A stretch of DNA of 64,000 bases, from NCBI GenBank assembly GCA_018814305.1, contig JAHJAA010000020.1, forward strand, positions 62,001 through 126,000. The letters run 5' to 3'. Made by a program: the position numbers and the translations under genes. Positions 1-18,706 of this stretch are shown here, one piece after another; the first letter of the stretch is position 1, and each line of letters opens with the position of its first letter. The stretch comes from Pseudomonadota bacterium (GTDB lineage: Bacteria > Desulfobacterota > Desulfobulbia > Desulfobulbales > JAGXFP01). The notes under the pieces were generated by a model. The model was not told the DNA's origin, ran no database searches, and saw nothing but the letters and a program-made list of their open reading frames with translations.

Positions 1-2
1 CT

Positions 3-566
3 TGGGAGTACTCGCCGCTGTCGGTATGGTGGCGTCTTGAGGGCGGTGATGATCGTAATATAGAGGTTGCTAACCACACAACGGCAGAAGAACTGGAAGC
101 CGCTCTGCGCATAGCCTCGCCACCCATAACGTCCTGGAATAACTTGGCTGATGTGGCAAGAGAACGCTTTCCTTCTCTGACATTTTCGGGTGATGCCTTC
201 GATCCATTCCGAGGACACCCTTTTGTCCCCGGTGCTGCACTTAGAATCATTGAGCGGCTTGAAATCCTGGAAAAAATGAAGGGTTGCTTTGATGCATCTG
301 GTGAGCGAACGCAAGAAGGACAAAGACTTTATCAGGAGTATTTCACTGGCGAAAATGCTTGGTTTTCAGATTCATCGGACCCTGAGAAACATGACTTTAA
401 ATCAGCGTTAACCTTTAAGCATCCAGGGAAAGCAGGCGAGACTTTATTTTGTTCCATGCACGGCAAGGTGAAAACGCCACAGATCAGGGTCCATTTTTCT
501 TGGCCCATAAGTAAAGACGCCGCGCTTTATATTGTGTATGTCGGTCCAAAGATCACAAAGCGCTGA
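3..566 (+). CDS. C-terminal part of an unknown protein upstream of pglZ
   Basis: The reading frame is open from the first complete codon of the window, so the gene begins upstream and only about 187 C-terminal residues are seen. A TTG at 144 could be read as a start, but the open frame before it argues against that. The visible part is soluble, with a charged, aromatic-rich end (motifs HGKVKTP, RVHFSWP, YIVYVGPK, final KR). No family was recognised with confidence. It lies on the same strand as pglZ with a 212-base gap, so it is probably an accessory gene of the BREX island. A stand-alone defence or toxin-type gene is equally possible. Confidence 0.7.
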   Translation, partial: WEYSPLSVWWRLEGGDDRNIEVANHTTAEELEAALRIASPPITSWNNLADVARERFPSLTFSGDAFDPFRGHPFVPGAALRIIERLEILEKMKGCFDASGERTQEGQRLYQEYFTGENAWFSDSSDPEKHDFKSALTFKHPGKAGETLFCSMHGKVKTPQIRVHFSWPISKDAALYIVYVGPKITKR

Positions 567-778: not shown

Positions 779-3283
779 ATGAGTGAGCGCATAGCCCAGG
801 CCCTGAGTAGGCTTTTTGACAAACACCGTATCGTCTTCTGGCACGATGCTGATAAGGAACTGCGTGCTGATTTTGAGGCTCTGCATCTGCCGGATATTAC
901 CAAGGTAGAGCTCAACAACAACGAGTTTGCGGTGAAGCATCGGATACTCCGCGAGCTACCAGAGCAGAAGTTTCTCCTCTACCGCGAAGGACCGCAACCT
1001 GCTGACTTGGACAACTGGTTGCTGGATGTGCAGCTGGCCCACGGTGAGTTTCAAACCGATCAAGCAGCCCTCCATCTGAGTGAACTCGAATTACCCCTGG
1101 AATTTGCCGAGCTTGTCCGGCAGCACCTTGATTTTTTCACAGCCGCGAAACGCCGGGAGGCCTTAAAAAAGCTCCTGAAACCTGATGATCAACCGCGACA
1201 GATTCGGCTCAAGATCCTGGCGGTGTGTGCCGGCCCCGGGGCAGAGGCGAGGCTGGATTCGATCCTGGAGTTTTTGCTGGCTGAATTGGCCGAGGATCGG
1301 GAAGAGAAGATCAAGCTGATCGGCCGTTGCGGGCTGGACAAGTATCTCTGGGAACAGACTGAACGGCTCTATGGCTATGAATCGAAAACCCCCGGGATTC
1401 GCGATTTCGCCATCGAGCTGTTCAAATCCTGCTACCGGATGGAACTTGGTGAGTCATCTCTTCTGAACAGCGAAGCCCTGGTTTTTCTCAAACGTTGGAA
1501 GGACAGTATCCGCCATCGCGCCACTTTCGAAAAGTTGTCCGACGATTGCGCCGATGTGTTGGGGATAGAAAAGGATCTGCAGCAGCGGGATTATCGACAG
1601 CTTCTGGACCTGGATTTCTTCCGCCTTATTGAACAGAAGATCATCTCTGACCTGGTCAACAGCTTGGCCAGTCGAACCTTGGCTGCTGGTGAGTGTGCCA
1701 CCCTCATTCGTGCCCGCCGACAGAGTCATTGGCATCAAGGCTATAGCGATATCTATGAAGCCATTGATTATGCCGCCCGGATTTTCTCAGAATTGGAAAC
1801 CGTTCACCTGCAAATTGATTCACTGGCTGACGGCGTGGAGCGCTATGTAGCTAACTGGTACCGCATCGATCAACTCTATCGGAAGTTTGTCTTTCATGCC
1901 CGGCAATCCGGAGAACCTTCGCTACTTGGTAAACTCATCACCATGGTTGAGGATCTCTATACCAACAACTACTTGCGCCGGGTGAACGATAAATGGCAGG
2001 AGCAGGTTGACCTTTGTGTAGAGTGGCGCAGTGCCGGCGTGGTTCGCCAGGACGGTTTCTTCCGAAAATGGGTGGCCCCTTTTCTCAAAGAGCAAAAGAA
2101 GGTTTCGGTGATCATTTCTGATGCCTTGCGCTACGAAATTGGCGAGGAACTGGTGAGTCTGATCCGGCGCGAGGATCGATACGATGCCGTGGTCGCTCCG
2201 ATGTTGACCTTGCTGCCAAGCTACACCCAACTGGGAATGGCAGCCTTATTGCCCCACCAGACACTGAGCTTTGCCCCAAACGACACAGGGGCTGTTCTGG
2301 TTGATGGCGTGAGTTCGCAAGGAACCCCCAATCGCTGCAAAATTCTGGCTCAGGGAATCAAGGCCCGGGGGGCGGTGGTGAAAGCCGACGAGCTGCTGGC
2401 GATGGACAAGGATGGGTGTCGGACCTTATTCCGTGATCATGATGTGGTCTATATCTACCATAATCGGATCGATGCAACTGGAGATGACCGCAAGACCGAG
2501 GAGCAGGTTTTCGGGGCGGTTGAAGAAGCGCTGGCTGAGCTGATTAAAGTCGTCAAAAAGCTTACGGCGGCCAATGCTACCAACCTCCTGGTTACTGCCG
2601 ACCACGGCTTTATCTACCAGAACCGGCCAATTCCCGAGAGTGATTTTACCGACATTGAAGCCAAAGACGAGTTGGTGTTGTATCGTGACCGCCGTTTCTT
2701 ACTTGGTAAAGGAATAAACGAACATGCCAGTCTAAAGAAATTCTCCAGCCAGGCCGTTGGCCTTACGGGGGAGATGGAAATTCAGTTACCGAAATCAATC
2801 AACCGTCTGCGGCTGCAAGGATCAGGGAGCCGTTATGTCCATGGCGGTGCCGCCTTGCAAGAGGTGGTTGTGCCGGTCGTTTCAATCAATAAGAAGCGCC
2901 GCAGTGACACAGGCAAGGTTGAGGTCGAGATCCTGCAAAGCGGCAATCAGTTAATCTCCTCCGGACAATTGGCAGTGGCCTTCTACCAGACTTTACCGGT
3001 CAGCAGCAAGATTCAGCCGAGAATATTGCGGGCAGGGATTTATGACCAGGGTGACCAGTTGATTTCCGACAGTCAAACCTTGAATTTTGATTCCGTCTCT
3101 GAAAATCCCCGTGATCGCGAGTTCAAGGTCAGATTTGTGATGTCTAGAAAAGCAGACGAAGCAAACAACCAAGATGTCAATTTGAAACTTGAGGAACAGT
3201 TGCCAGGGACCTCGCATTTTAGAGAGTACAAATCTTTGCGGTACACCCTGCGCCGGTCATTCACCAGCGACTTTGAGCTTTAG
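779..3283 (+). CDS. pglZ: BREX type 1 PglZ
   Basis: An 834-residue protein of the usual size for BREX-1 PglZ, a core component of the BREX phage-exclusion system, which methylates self DNA and blocks phage DNA replication. The opening matches the family (FDKHRIVFWHDADKELR). The central alkaline-phosphatase-superfamily PglZ domain shows VSVIISDALRYEIGEEL near residue 440 and the metal-site stretch LLVTADHGFIYQ near residue 605. The start ATG follows AAAGGATGTTGGA. The gene ends 6 bases before brxL, so the two are co-transcribed. The other core genes (brxA, brxB, brxC, pglX) are expected upstream, outside the window. Family assignment is firm; the role in the complex is family knowledge. Confidence 0.95.
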   Translation: MSERIAQALSRLFDKHRIVFWHDADKELRADFEALHLPDITKVELNNNEFAVKHRILRELPEQKFLLYREGPQPADLDNWLLDVQLAHGEFQTDQAALHLSELELPLEFAELVRQHLDFFTAAKRREALKKLLKPDDQPRQIRLKILAVCAGPGAEARLDSILEFLLAELAEDREEKIKLIGRCGLDKYLWEQTERLYGYESKTPGIRDFAIELFKSCYRMELGESSLLNSEALVFLKRWKDSIRHRATFEKLSDDCADVLGIEKDLQQRDYRQLLDLDFFRLIEQKIISDLVNSLASRTLAAGECATLIRARRQSHWHQGYSDIYEAIDYAARIFSELETVHLQIDSLADGVERYVANWYRIDQLYRKFVFHARQSGEPSLLGKLITMVEDLYTNNYLRRVNDKWQEQVDLCVEWRSAGVVRQDGFFRKWVAPFLKEQKKVSVIISDALRYEIGEELVSLIRREDRYDAVVAPMLTLLPSYTQLGMAALLPHQTLSFAPNDTGAVLVDGVSSQGTPNRCKILAQGIKARGAVVKADELLAMDKDGCRTLFRDHDVVYIYHNRIDATGDDRKTEEQVFGAVEEALAELIKVVKKLTAANATNLLVTADHGFIYQNRPIPESDFTDIEAKDELVLYRDRRFLLGKGINEHASLKKFSSQAVGLTGEMEIQLPKSINRLRLQGSGSRYVHGGAALQEVVVPVVSINKKRRSDTGKVEVEILQSGNQLISSGQLAVAFYQTLPVSSKIQPRILRAGIYDQGDQLISDSQTLNFDSVSENPRDREFKVRFVMSRKADEANNQDVNLKLEEQLPGTSHFREYKSLRYTLRRSFTSDFEL

Positions 3284-3289
3284 AGGAAT

Positions 3290-5347
3290 ATGGGAACGAT
3301 GAATGAACTTGACCAAAAGATAGTTGAATATTTTCCGGGATTGGTGGTCAGAAAAGACCTTGTAAAAATAGTTAAGGGCAATGCCATTGTACCTTCCTAT
3401 GTTCTTGAATATCTCCTTGGGCAGTATTGCGCCACGGCTGACGAGCCCAGCATAAAGTCTGGAATTGAAACTGTTAAGGAAATTCTCCGAAAACATTACG
3501 TCCACCGGAATGAAGCCGGGCTTGTTAAGTCGATCATTAAGGAAAAAGGGCGGCACAAGGTAATAGACAAGATCGGTGTTGACCTGAATGACAAAGCTGG
3601 GACCTATGAGGCATCATTCTCTAACTTGGGGATCAGTAAGGTACTTGTCTCCGTTGATACTATTAAAAAACATCCTAAGCTTTTAGTTGGCGGGGTCTGG
3701 TGCATTGCCGAACTGGGATATGAACATCTTGACGACCCAAAGGCCAGCCCATGGGTGATGGAATCGATAAAGCCGATTCAACTTTCCCACTTCGACTATG
3801 ACGGCTATCTGGCGGCAAGAAAAAAATTCACTACGGATGAGTGGATTGATCTTCTTCTGCAAAGTATCGGGTTCAATCCCGAGATGTTCGGCAAACGCAG
3901 TAAGCTGTTACAACTTGTCCGGCTTATCCCTTACTGCGAGAGAAATTACAACCTGATCGAACTTGGGCCCAAGGGGACTGGAAAATCCCATATTTATTCT
4001 GAATTCTCTCCACACGGCATACTCATTTCAGGTGGTGAGGTTACGGTGCCCAAGCTTTTCGTTAATAACAGTAATGGGAAACTTGGCTTGGTGGGCTACT
4101 GGGACGCAGTTGCCTTTGACGAATTTGCTGGCAAGAAGAAAAAGCCCAACAAGGCCCTGGTCGACATCATGAAAAACTACATGGCCAACAAGACTTTCTC
4201 GCGAGGCGTGGAGACACTGGGAGCCGAGGCATCCATGGTTTTTGTCGGCAACACGCAGAACCCTTTACCTTACATGTTGAAACACACAGATCTTTTCGAT
4301 GAATTGCCTGATGCATATCACGATTCAGCCTTTCTGGATCGGTTGCATTTTTACATCCCCGGCTGGGAAGTGGACATCATCCGGGGAGAGATGTTCTCTG
4401 AAGGGTACGGCTTTGTCGTTGACTATCTGGCCGAGATCCTCCGGACCATGCGAAACCATGACTTTTCCCATTTTTACGCGGACCACTTTGATCTACTGAG
4501 TGACATTTCCACCCGGGATCGCGATGCGGTAAATAAGACTTTTAGTGGGCTGGTGAAAATTCTGTTCCCACACCAAGAAGCATCGACCGAAGAGCTGGAA
4601 GATGTCTTGAAGTTTGCCATTGAAGGAAGGAAGCGGATTAAAGACCAGCTGTTTCGGATCGATCAGACGTATGAGCCGGTTCGGTTTGGCTATAAGGTCC
4701 AAGGTGAGGATACTGTGAACCTGATTAAGACCTTGGAAGAAACACAATATCCCCAACATTATTATAAAGGCTTCAATCCGCCTGAGGATGCTGGGCAGGC
4801 CGAGCAGTCAGAAGTCCAACCGACAGCAACGGCAGCAGAGAGTACGGAGGAAATACTCAAAGAACAACATCTAACCTTTCAAGAGAATCAGCGGGGGCTG
4901 AGTTACGACAACCTTTTCGGCAAGTATCTGCAAGGGGCGAGCAAGATTACGATCACAGACCCGTATATTCGGCTCTTTTACCAAGCCCGCAACATGATGG
5001 AATTTCTCGAAACCGTTGCTAAATTCAAGTCAGACGATGCCGTGGTGGATGTCACTTTGGTTACTGTTGAGGACGAGTTTAAGGGCGATGCCCAAAAAGA
5101 TTTCCTTCAACAGATGCAGATGAGTGTCCAATCGGCCGGAATCAGGTTTTCCTGGGAATTCGACAAATCTGGATCAGCCCATGCCCGACATATTGTTATC
5201 GATACCGGCTGGAAGATCCTCCTTGATCGAGGATTAGATATCTTCCAGCACTACGACATGAATGAAGCATTCTCAATAAATAACAGGATACAGGATTTTC
5301 GAGCCTGCAAGGCATTTGAAGTGACCTTCCTCCTCATGAATAATTAA
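3290..5347 (+). CDS. brxL: BrxL AAA+ ATPase with a MIT_C-like C-terminal domain
   Basis: A 685-residue BREX protein following pglZ by 6 bases. The N-terminal part (VEYFPGLVVRKDLV, LEYLLGQYCA) and the AAA+ core with Walker A GPKGTGKSH near residue 228 are typical of BrxL, an oligomeric DNA-associated ATPase needed for phage restriction. After a low-complexity linker (about 500-527), residues 528-685 do not look like a Lon protease domain. The pattern RGLSYDNLFGKYLQGA, ITDPYIRLFYQARN, LVTVEDEF, GIRFSWEFD, RHIVIDTGWKI and GLDIFQ resembles the MIT_C phospholipase D-like domain of eukaryotic MITD1. ATG 3290 has GAGG just upstream; ATG 3299 is an alternative. The C-terminal call rests on remembered motifs. 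Confidence 0.92.
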   Translation: MGTMNELDQKIVEYFPGLVVRKDLVKIVKGNAIVPSYVLEYLLGQYCATADEPSIKSGIETVKEILRKHYVHRNEAGLVKSIIKEKGRHKVIDKIGVDLNDKAGTYEASFSNLGISKVLVSVDTIKKHPKLLVGGVWCIAELGYEHLDDPKASPWVMESIKPIQLSHFDYDGYLAARKKFTTDEWIDLLLQSIGFNPEMFGKRSKLLQLVRLIPYCERNYNLIELGPKGTGKSHIYSEFSPHGILISGGEVTVPKLFVNNSNGKLGLVGYWDAVAFDEFAGKKKKPNKALVDIMKNYMANKTFSRGVETLGAEASMVFVGNTQNPLPYMLKHTDLFDELPDAYHDSAFLDRLHFYIPGWEVDIIRGEMFSEGYGFVVDYLAEILRTMRNHDFSHFYADHFDLLSDISTRDRDAVNKTFSGLVKILFPHQEASTEELEDVLKFAIEGRKRIKDQLFRIDQTYEPVRFGYKVQGEDTVNLIKTLEETQYPQHYYKGFNPPEDAGQAEQSEVQPTATAAESTEEILKEQHLTFQENQRGLSYDNLFGKYLQGASKITITDPYIRLFYQARNMMEFLETVAKFKSDDAVVDVTLVTVEDEFKGDAQKDFLQQMQMSVQSAGIRFSWEFDKSGSAHARHIVIDTGWKILLDRGLDIFQHYDMNEAFSINNRIQDFRACKAFEVTFLLMNN

Positions 5348-14856: not shown

Positions 14857-17800
14857 TTAGCCACAGTCAACCGCACAGGTATTCGCGTTTTCTCCATTGA
14901 TTGCATTACAGACCCCGTCACCGCAATACGGTGCAGCAGTCCCGCAATCGGCGGAACAAGTCTGTGAGGTCTCGGTGCCATTGCAGGTTCCGTCACCACA
15001 GTACGGCGTGACCGGACAATCATTGGGACAGAGGGCATTGGTCTCACCGGTTTCACAGATGGTGTTCCCGCAGACTGGACCGCCGCCAACCGCACAATCG
15101 ACCGCACATGAAGTGGTCGTTTCACCATTGATCGCATTACAGACCCCGTCACCACAGTAAGGAGCTGTCCCACAGTCACCGGCGCAGGTCTGCGGAGTTT
15201 CACTACCGTTACAAACTCCATCGCCACAGTATGGCGTAGTTGGACAGTCATTGGGACACAGGGCGTTGGTCTCACCAGCCTCGCAGATCCCGTTGCCGCA
15301 TACCTCACCTCCGCTGGGTCCTGTCCCACAGTCTGCAGAGCACGAGGTAGACGACTCCGCCGCATCACAAATCCCATCACCACAATACGGCGCCGTTGGG
15401 CAATCATTGGGGCAGGTAGCATTGATTTCACTGCCTTCACAGACCCCGTTCCCGCAGACCTCACCACCGCCAGGCACTGTCCCACAGTCCGCAGAGCAAG
15501 AGGTGGACGACTCCGCCGCATCACAAATCCCATCACCACAATACGGCGCCGTTGGACAATCATTGGGACAAAGGGCGTTGGTCTCACCACCCTCGCAAAT
15601 CCCATTACCGCAGACCTCCCCTCCGCCTGTTGCGGTACCACAATCTTTAGAACAGGACGCGGACGATTCTGCCGTATCACAAACCCCATCGCCACAGTAC
15701 GGCGCCGTTGAACAATCATTGGGACAAAGGGCGTTGGTTTCACTCCCTTCACAGATCCCGTTGCCGCAAACCTCGCCTCCGCCGGATCCTGTCCCACAGT
15801 CCGAAGAACAAGAGGTGGATGACTCTGCTGCATCACAAACCCCATCACCACAGTACGGCGCCGTTGGGCAATCATTAGGACAAAGGGCGTTGGTCTCACC
15901 ACCCTCGCAAATCCCATTACCGCAGACCTCGCCGCCGCCGGTTACAGTCCCACAGTCTGAAGAACAAGAGGTGGCCGACTCTGCCGCATCACAAACCCCG
16001 TCACCACAGAACGGCGCCGGTGGGCAATCACCAGGACAAAGGGCGTTGGTCTCACCACCCTCGCAGATCCCGTTGCCGCACATCTCCCCGCCACCCGTCA
16101 CGGTCCCACAGTCCGTAGAACAAGAGGTAGCGGACTCCGCCGCATCGCAAACCCCATCGCCACATTGACTTGTCCCGGTTGAAGGGCATCCCATGTTGGC
16201 CGCCGTTCCCACGGTATTAGGGCAACGATCAAAGCCATCGGGAATACCGTCCTGATCGCTATCCGTTGTTTCAGGACACCCGAAGCTCTTATAGAGTCCC
16301 GGTTCATTTATGCACTGGTCGACAGAGTCCGGGACACCATCACCATCGGTATCACCGATAACACCTTCCGGACATCCTCCGCTGGCAGCAACTCCCGGGG
16401 TCAGCGGGCAGAGATCATAACGATCGGGAACCCCATCACCATCAACATCGCCAGCGCTGGTCACCGGACACCCCAGAGCAGAGGCCGAACCGGGGGTATT
16501 AGGACACAGATCCGAAACATCGGGAACTCCATCGCCATCCACATCATCAACCACCGGACATCCCATCGCCGAAAGCGGTCCTGGGTCGTTAGGGCAACGA
16601 TCAATCTCGTCCGGGACCCCATCTGCGTCACTGTCTCCGGTTACCGGGCAACCTGCACTACTGAAGGAACCAGCACTGTTTGGACAGAGATCCTTGTCAT
16701 CGGCAATCCCGTCTCCATCGGAATCCGTACCCGGGGTCCCGGTGGTACCAATCACCGTAAAAGGACATCCTTTGAATGCTGCGGTTCCTGCTTTTTGCGG
16801 ACACATGTCCTGATCATTGGGCACACCATCTCCATCGTTATCCGCTTCACTGACCAGAGGACACCCGAAGTTAAGCGGATCCCCGGGGGTATCGATACAT
16901 TTATCACTTTCATTGGGCACACCATCCCCATCCAGATCGCCCCCGGTGGTAGGACAGCCGTTATTCGCGGCGGTTCCAGGCATATTAGGACATTGATCCT
17001 GATCGTTGGCAATGCCGTCCCGGTCTCGATCACCATCCAAGGGACAGCCTTTATTATCACGCGGCCCGGGCTGATCAGGACAGGCATCCACGGCATCTGG
17101 AATCCAATCAAAATCAGCATCGGTCAGATCGGGGCAACCATTCTTCGCGGCTGTACCCTGGCGCAGGGGGCAGCGATCCTGATCGTCATCAATCCCATCG
17201 CCATCGGTGTCACCGGTCGTTGAAGTTCTGGGACACCCTTGGTTGGCCGGTGGGCCCGGTTGGTCGATGCATTGATCGGCATCATCGGTCGTCCCGTCAC
17301 CATCGGTATCATTGGCCCCCTTTTCAGGACACCCATGATTGGCCGCGGTTCCAGGGCTATTCAAACACCGATCAACACTGTCATTGACCCCGTCCTGATC
17401 CCGATCACTCTGCAAGGGACATCCGTCATTTTCAGGAGGACCGATCCGGTTTGGACAACGATCGAAATAATTGGTCACCCCATCCCCATCGGTATCATCC
17501 TCACCGGGACAACCGTTGTAAAGCCCGGCGGCATCGGGACACTCATCGAAATCGTCTGGTCTACCATCACCATCACTATCATTGGGATCAAGCCAGGGAC
17601 ACCCAGAAAGGTTCCCATCCCCGGGATCATTGGGACAGAGATCGATGTCATCAGTCAATCCATCGCCATCGGAATCGGGCCAGGGACAACCGAAATTATC
17701 AACCGGTCCAGCCAGATCGACACATTCATCACGGCGATCCGGAATTCCGTCCTGATCGGTGTCCTCAGGCGGACAGCCATTCTTTGCAGCAAGGCCAAAG

Positions 17801-18552
17801 CGATATGGGCAGTCGTCAACTTCATCAAGGACGCCGTCACCGTCGGCGTCACCGGTCTGACCTGTCTGGCTGCCGCCAGACATCAAAATGCCACCCTGTT
17901 TGACCAGATCGATAATATCGGGGATACCATTACCGTCAGTATCGATTTTAAGCAGTGAGTCGAGATACCCACTGACCAGATTATTATCGACCGGATCCTT
18001 CTGGGGAAGCGCCGCAAAGGTGTTCGGGTCGATCACGATGTTCCCGAGATCAATGCCGAACTGACTCAAGTTTTCCAGGGGGAGCAGGACTCCATCACCA
18101 AACTGGACAAGACCGCTGAGGTTCTGCTCACAATCAACAATGGCCAGCAGATAGGTCGTGCCGGAGGGCAAACTGAGTAAGAATTGGCCATCGTCGGTAA
18201 TCTCCACCATCTGGGTAGCCCCTTGATCGGGAATGGCGACCATATACAAACAGGACGTGGCTGCGGCCCGCAGGTTGGCAGGGCCGGCCAGCAACGAGGA
18301 AATGGTCCCGGTTATATACAAAGAGCGCTGGTTGGCAGTAACTGCTGTGGTTGTTGTAGTTGAGGCAACCGTGGTTGTGGTCGACACAGCCCCACCGGTG
18401 GTAGTAGTAGTCGTTATGTTGGTGGTGGTCTGGGTTCCTCCACCGCCGCCGCCTCCTCCACAGCTGGTCATGACCCCGGCCAATACCAGGCATATCAGCA
18501 TCACACAAACGGGGGGAACCAATTTTATTTGGCGAATCTTCCTGGACATCAT
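14857..18552 (-). CDS. Giant TSP3 / cysteine-repeat lipoprotein
   Basis: About 1231 residues from the ATG at 18552, chosen because GGAGG precedes a double ATG there; the longer frame to 18624 adds an unlikely leader. It has a signal peptide with lipobox ending VMTSC, then poly-Gly and Thr-rich linkers and a globular N-terminal domain of about 150 residues. Eighteen thrombospondin type-3 repeats follow (DxDGDGxPDxxDxCP...GCP), expected to bind Ca2+. The C-terminus has seventeen short Cys repeats alternating CGDGVCDAAES..C..DCG and CGNGICEGGETNALCPNDCP. It is probably an outer-membrane-anchored surface protein for adhesion or structure. Nothing links it to a neighbour. The Cys repeats are nearly identical at DNA level, so copy number may vary and assembly errors are possible. 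Confidence 0.9.
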   Translation of the reverse strand: MMSRKIRQIKLVPPVCVMLICLVLAGVMTSCGGGGGGGGTQTTTNITTTTTTGGAVSTTTTVASTTTTTAVTANQRSLYITGTISSLLAGPANLRAAATSCLYMVAIPDQGATQMVEITDDGQFLLSLPSGTTYLLAIVDCEQNLSGLVQFGDGVLLPLENLSQFGIDLGNIVIDPNTFAALPQKDPVDNNLVSGYLDSLLKIDTDGNGIPDIIDLVKQGGILMSGGSQTGQTGDADGDGVLDEVDDCPYRFGLAAKNGCPPEDTDQDGIPDRRDECVDLAGPVDNFGCPWPDSDGDGLTDDIDLCPNDPGDGNLSGCPWLDPNDSDGDGRPDDFDECPDAAGLYNGCPGEDDTDGDGVTNYFDRCPNRIGPPENDGCPLQSDRDQDGVNDSVDRCLNSPGTAANHGCPEKGANDTDGDGTTDDADQCIDQPGPPANQGCPRTSTTGDTDGDGIDDDQDRCPLRQGTAAKNGCPDLTDADFDWIPDAVDACPDQPGPRDNKGCPLDGDRDRDGIANDQDQCPNMPGTAANNGCPTTGGDLDGDGVPNESDKCIDTPGDPLNFGCPLVSEADNDGDGVPNDQDMCPQKAGTAAFKGCPFTVIGTTGTPGTDSDGDGIADDKDLCPNSAGSFSSAGCPVTGDSDADGVPDEIDRCPNDPGPLSAMGCPVVDDVDGDGVPDVSDLCPNTPGSASALGCPVTSAGDVDGDGVPDRYDLCPLTPGVAASGGCPEGVIGDTDGDGVPDSVDQCINEPGLYKSFGCPETTDSDQDGIPDGFDRCPNTVGTAANMGCPSTGTSQCGDGVCDAAESATSCSTDCGTVTGGGEMCGNGICEGGETNALCPGDCPPAPFCGDGVCDAAESATSCSSDCGTVTGGGEVCGNGICEGGETNALCPNDCPTAPYCGDGVCDAAESSTSCSSDCGTGSGGGEVCGNGICEGSETNALCPNDCSTAPYCGDGVCDTAESSASCSKDCGTATGGGEVCGNGICEGGETNALCPNDCPTAPYCGDGICDAAESSTSCSADCGTVPGGGEVCGNGVCEGSEINATCPNDCPTAPYCGDGICDAAESSTSCSADCGTGPSGGEVCGNGICEAGETNALCPNDCPTTPYCGDGVCNGSETPQTCAGDCGTAPYCGDGVCNAINGETTTSCAVDCAVGGGPVCGNTICETGETNALCPNDCPVTPYCGDGTCNGTETSQTCSADCGTAAPYCGDGVCNAINGENANTCAVDCG

Positions 18553-18706
18553 CGTACCTCCATCACTCGTATTCAGCCCCCACCCTGGCCCAACAGCACC
18601 GAACAACAACCGGGAGCAACGCATCTCTCAACGGGAACAAACCCGACTTTTCAATCATAGCATGACTGTATTTTTACCATGAAAACTCAAAAATATAAAA
18701 TATATT

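Follow-up and report, generated by a model that had tools for sequence, protein, structure and literature searches.

The DNA analyzed here, a stretch of 64,000 nucleotides (hereafter the window), lies on a 150-kb contig in a 4.15-Mb genome and begins within a BREX operon whose remaining genes are supplied by the upstream sequence (L021). The operon reads brxA-brxB-brxC-Schlafen-pglX-sduA-nsnABC-pglZ-brxL, with brxL as its last gene. Between brxC and pglX lies a Schlafen/Fic-like gene, and between pglX and pglZ lie sduA (Shedu) and a complete Menshen nsnABC set (L021:14096-18566, ending at window position 566). The complete nsnC-like product (324 amino acids) matches the PADLOC NsnC model PDLC03896 at 7.7e-124. 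Farther along the window, at 14857-18624 on the minus strand, a long gene product that looks secreted carries numerous Asp-rich repeats (DxDxDG...D), together with CGDGxC repeats in tandem. The features around brxL are the following.

1-566, plus strand: 3' part of the nsnC-like (Menshen) gene, which in full spans L021:17592-18566
779-3283, plus strand: pglZ, BREX-1 type A, directly upstream of brxL (TIGR02687, 9e-292)
3290-5347, plus strand: brxL, 685 amino acids, with a C-terminal MIT_C (PLD-fold) domain (PADLOC PDLC02508, TIGR02688)
3326-3721, plus strand: BrxL_N, residues 13-144 (PF20442, E=2.3e-47)
3752-4684, plus strand: BrxL AAA+ ATPase, residues 155-465 (PF13337, E=7.1e-130)
4739-4870, plus strand: poorly conserved Pro/Gln/Glu-rich linker, residues 484-527 (identity and sequence)
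4895-5329, plus strand: MIT_C phospholipase-D-like domain, residues 536-680 (PF16565, E=1.8e-42)
4958-4972, plus strand: DPYIR motif, D557-R561, with D557 invariant and also in MITD1 (conservation in 49 domains)
5180-5203, plus strand: HxRx4D, H631-D638, a degenerate HKD ('HRD') site (49 and 104 domains)
5228-5239, plus strand: RGLD motif, with R647, G648 and D650 invariant and also in MITD1 (conservation in 49 domains)

The BrxL protein and its C-terminal end

The brxL product is matched by PDLC02508 over residues 4-681 of 685 (1123 bits) and by TIGR02688 at 4e-192, and the occurrence of BrxL_N and the BrxL AAA+ domain in a locus with brxA, brxB, brxC, pglX and pglZ assigns the system to Type-1 BREX. 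Both NCBIfam BrxL models (TIGR02688 and TIGR02653) stop at residues 458-469, so the tail lies beyond the part of the protein that they describe. PDLC02508 covers the whole protein, tail included, and a BrxL with an MIT_C end is thus an architecture already present in databases. PF16565 (MIT_C) scores 145 bits against the protein, far above its curated cut-off of 25 bits, with profile positions 1-140 of 142 covered; positions 4871-5344 alone give E=8e-44. In phmmer searches of the PDB, residues 5-468 match Acinetobacter BrxL (E=3e-135) and residues 528-675 match human MITD1 (E=4e-15), which is itself matched at E=3e-44 by a profile of 10 bacterial MIT_C domains. The window protein is a Type-1 BREX BrxL that ends in MIT_C, the family to which the C-terminal half of human MITD1 also belongs; the genome has a single MIT_C domain. 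A homologue from Methylomonas koyamae is 66% identical.

The original prediction had named an MITD1-like end from the motifs RGLSYDNLFG, ITDPYIRLFYQARN, LVTVEDEF and RHIVIDTGWKI, which lie at residues 535, 555, 590 and 633 of the reading frame, and this identification is fully borne out. Its observation that a Lon protease is missing is equally sound: no Lon/S16 peptidase model in Pfam or NCBIfam matches the tail at E<=1. Neither of the outcomes that it had set against itself, a clear S16 match and a lack of any PF16565 match, arose. The phrase "instead of a Lon protease" is right about the tail but overstates the contrast, because the usual BrxL C-terminal domain is Lon/RadA-like in shape and is without protease and DNA-binding residues (Shen 2023, PMC10164562). 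Acinetobacter BrxL (8emc, 8emh) shares the N-terminal and AAA+ domains with the window protein (residues 5-468) and, unlike it, ends in this Lon/RadA-like fold without an active site. The description "eukaryotic-like" is probably wrong, since MIT_C domains occur widely among bacteria, in most cases as part of BrxL. The Pro/Gln/Glu-rich linker ahead of the domain (...NPPEDAGQAEQSEVQPTATAAESTEEILKEQH), also part of the prediction, is real: mean identity across 19 relatives is 27% over residues 469-527, as opposed to 78% over the N-terminal and AAA+ domains and 64% over MIT_C. A full-length AlphaFold2 model was poor (pLDDT 51.8, pTM 0.35) and served solely to note that the linker is a low-confidence region.

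The tail alone, modeled with AlphaFold2 from 36 sequences (the window and fetched loci), gave a pLDDT of 89.7 and a pTM of 0.86. Foldseek comparison of this model with the PDB returned MITD1 chains as the first five matches, with 4a5z_B, the MITD1 C-terminal domain, as the best (E=7e-17, TM 0.81, rmsd 2.0), in agreement with the fold originally predicted. After these came mouse Zucchini/PLD6, phosphatidylserine synthases, human PLD2 and the restriction enzyme SauUSI, and no Lon structure was among the 50 PDB matches listed. Zucchini/PLD6 (E=3.5e-5, TM 0.43) and SauUSI (E=1e-3, TM 0.50) have the PLD fold in common with the tail but differ in carrying an HKD motif with lysine, and their TM scores are low. 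By sequence and predicted fold, the closest solved structure is human MITD1, followed by catalytic PLD-fold enzymes.

A conserved pocket in common with MITD1

MITD1 is described as a membrane-binding cytokinesis factor and is an ESCRT-III cofactor. Its C-terminal domain (4a5z, 2ymb) belongs to the same Pfam family as the BrxL tail and has the same predicted fold and the same invariant residues; unlike BrxL, MITD1 starts with an MIT domain that binds ESCRT-III, carries Asn at the Asp position of HxRx4D and has its context in cytokinesis. No match to the MIT domain was found anywhere in the 685 amino acids of the window protein, whose N-terminus is that of BrxL. Across 49 bacterial MIT_C domains, non-redundant at 85%, 11 residues are invariant (D557, Q565, N568, T592, H631, R633, G640, R647, G648, D650 and R671), which points to a site under selection, and human MITD1 carries all 11.

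The HxKx4D motif of HKD phospholipase-D nucleases is absent from the tail, where the motif is HxRx4D (H631-R633-D638). Its His and Arg are invariant in the 49 domains, whereas D638 is not (Asp in 88%, Asn in 10%). A wider count took in 104 domains including MITD1, one of which ends before the motif at a contig end; HxR is kept in 101 of the 103 that reach it, the two exceptions reading QxR (L068) and HxC (L149), and the Asp is present in 86 of those 101. Some bacterial members have Asn, Ser or Gly at the Asp position, and MITD1 has Asn. With HxR kept, the Asp variable and the conserved residues present in MITD1 as well, what selection maintains is a His/Arg/Asp pocket common to MITD1 and not an HKD triad. 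At a pI of 5.2 the window domain is acidic and offers DNA no net basic charge.

Two ORF6N-domain proteins (L158, L159) have the C-terminal motif HDRFLIID, also an HxRx4D, which suggests that PLD-like domains of the HxR kind turn up in further bacterial families. Menshen NsnC was considered as a carrier of MIT_C, as the model PDLC03880 matches MIT_C weakly (E=0.0043), and was dropped when a search of 291 relatives returned only a fragment and ORF6N-fused proteins with the HDRFLIID motif.

The window protein belongs to a BrxL class already in print, BrxL-HKD. Rakesh & Krishnan (NAR, January 2026, PMC12839542) report a C-terminal 'HKD-endoDNase' with HRD in 1030 of 2913 Type-1 BrxL, propose a DNase role for the class, call HKD fusions Type-1-specific and regard HRD as likely to preserve activity; they credit the first notice of BrxL-HKD to Li et al. 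2025 (gkaf357). Their proteins, like the window's, have a BrxL core and a PLD/HKD-fold end with Lys-to-Arg in place of the Lon-like domain. Our results depart from their account in that the HRD Asp is not conserved and a Type-4-like core also has the domain. Furthermore, the same Lys-to-Arg change gives the standard catalytically dead PLD2, K758R (PMC10942622), which weakens the published view of HRD by analogy, although natural HxR families may have adapted. The main text of PMC12839542 makes no mention of MITD1, MIT_C or PF16565, and the MITD1 link and the repeated recruitment of the domain appear not to have been described before; the additions made here are that MITD1 keeps the invariant residues, that BrxL acquired MIT_C on several occasions, and that MITD1 groups with one BrxL subtype.

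Distribution and repeated recruitment of MIT_C

Among the BrxL cores that we fetched, 105 end in MIT_C, 19 in a Lon-like domain of about 206 amino acids and four in no C-terminal domain, counts that come from an MIT_C-baited search. Only a handful of the MIT_C domains found lie outside BrxL. Across 297 genomes sampled evenly across the phylum, the BrxL ATPase was present in 27 and MIT_C in seven. Phage records searched with the window domain and the L004-type domain gave no match, nor did viral contigs searched with the window domain; with the L004-type profile the viral contigs gave three loci only, all BrxL.

In a tree of 39 BrxL cores, from which the C-terminal domain was excluded, MIT_C falls in three separate clades. 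One is the window's, a second (L004, L146, L147) is nested among Lon-type cores, and a third (L027, L137) is sister to cores without a C-terminal domain. Constraining the MIT_C cores to a single clade was rejected (delta lnL 158, p-AU 1e-44). Judged from this tree, BrxL gained MIT_C on three or more occasions, one of them on a Type-4-like core, a setting from which it had been reported missing. Loci of the third group contain an Eco57I-type methyltransferase, an SspC-like BrxC and a divergent PglZ, and L027 also has DUF4007/SspB; this content indicates that HKD-type tails also occur outside Type-1 cores. Two BREX-like loci (L027:4515-18810 and L155:438-13593) combine a short-type BrxL core and MIT_C with an SspC-like BrxC and a divergent PglZ. 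No PAPS reductase was present among the genes scanned in these two loci, where an Eco57I-type methyltransferase is present, and they look like a hybrid of a Type-4 chassis and methylation.

Other arrangements of the domain were also encountered. A 947-aa plasmid protein of Candidatus Thiodictyon syntrophicum (L023:5628-8471) joins a Dynamin_N GTPase to a C-terminal MIT_C, and a 349-aa plasmid protein of Paenarthrobacter (L022:7437-8486) joins IF2_N to one. At L112:640-1839 a RhuM-family protein carries, as an in-frame fusion, the second half of MIT_C; it looks like the product of a RhuM gene that inserted into a brxL.

Possible functions of the MIT_C end

The C-terminal end of BrxL is the least understood part of BREX restriction, and the MITD1 link supplies an experimental structure and a defined set of residues for about a third of Type-1 BrxL, by the published count. 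We propose, as a reading that falls just short of probable, that MIT_C is a phosphodiester-binding PLD-fold module that acts on DNA under the BrxL ATPase, perhaps as a nuclease and not as a protease. Hypothetically, the AAA+ ring would load onto incoming DNA, as in Acinetobacter BrxL, with the MIT_C domains hanging on flexible linkers in the position from which Lon-like domains ordinarily link a pair of rings tail to tail. The His/Arg/Asp pocket would bind the phosphodiester backbone and probably nick or cut the DNA once two MIT_C domains pair, because single-motif PLD enzymes work as dimers. MIT_C would then be a DNA-acting effector controlled by the ATPase. The domain identity, the predicted PLD fold, the BREX operon, the invariant pocket and the near-universal HxR all favor this reading, as do the independent assignment of the class as an HKD-type endoDNase (PMC12839542) and the assembly of BrxL on dsDNA with ATP (PMC10164562). 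Against it stand the dead K758R form of PLD2, the variable motif Asp, the low pI, the description of MITD1, with the same invariant residues, as membrane-binding, and the Acinetobacter BrxL structure, in which the C-terminal domains are far from the DNA (PMC10164562).

Catalysis in particular is uncertain, because Lys-to-Arg kills PLD2. It is a real possibility, not far behind the first reading, that the domain is non-catalytic, a phosphate-binding and dimerizing end of BrxL that joins rings and contacts DNA, while PglZ and other nucleases of the locus carry out restriction. The Lon-like end, too, is an enzyme fold without activity, put to use in joining two rings tail to tail (PMC10164562), and the interchange of MIT_C, Lon-like and no domain on one ATPase core is what one would predict were the ATPase the essential component; the inactivated PLD2 and the unconserved D638 fit as well. 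However, near-invariant H631 and R633, together with many other conserved pocket residues, seem to go beyond the needs of a scaffold alone. The original suggestion of membrane binding, which would put BrxL where phage DNA enters the cell, draws on MITD1 as the nearest solved structure, on the title of Hadders 2012 (cited in PMC9477494), which presents MITD1 as a membrane-binding PLD fold, and on the coupling of MIT_C to a dynamin GTPase domain in the Thiodictyon plasmid protein. We consider it unlikely for BrxL: nothing found here supports it directly, almost all the loci found have the domain on a DNA-loading ATPase, and the domain has no net basic charge. Its setting on BrxL is more in keeping with a role in binding phosphodiesters on DNA, even as the unrelated dynamin-type protein keeps a membrane role conceivable for the MIT_C family. 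Very unlikely, finally, is an abortive response in which a phosphodiesterase activity, of phospholipase type or another, harms the membrane or nucleotides of the cell itself, since the Foldseek matches to phosphatidylserine synthases and PLDs that bring it to mind are weak, at a TM of about 0.45, and common to proteins of this fold, and the chain has no second HKD motif.

The shared domain suggests a connection between a eukaryotic cytokinesis factor and a bacterial immune protein through a module that binds membranes in the former. It is conceivable, if somewhat doubtful, that the membrane-binding domain of MITD1 descends from a BREX domain of the L004/L146/L147 BrxL subtype, with the phosphate pocket left intact and reused for lipid headgroups. 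Human MITD1 groups with L004-type MIT_C to the exclusion of all others with support of 100/99 (21 domains, long-branched rows excluded) and of 90/98 with all rows included, in a tree that is unrooted and holds one eukaryotic sequence, so that it gives a grouping and not a direction of transfer. The identity of human MITD1 is 44-46% to L004 and L146 and 34% to the window domain.
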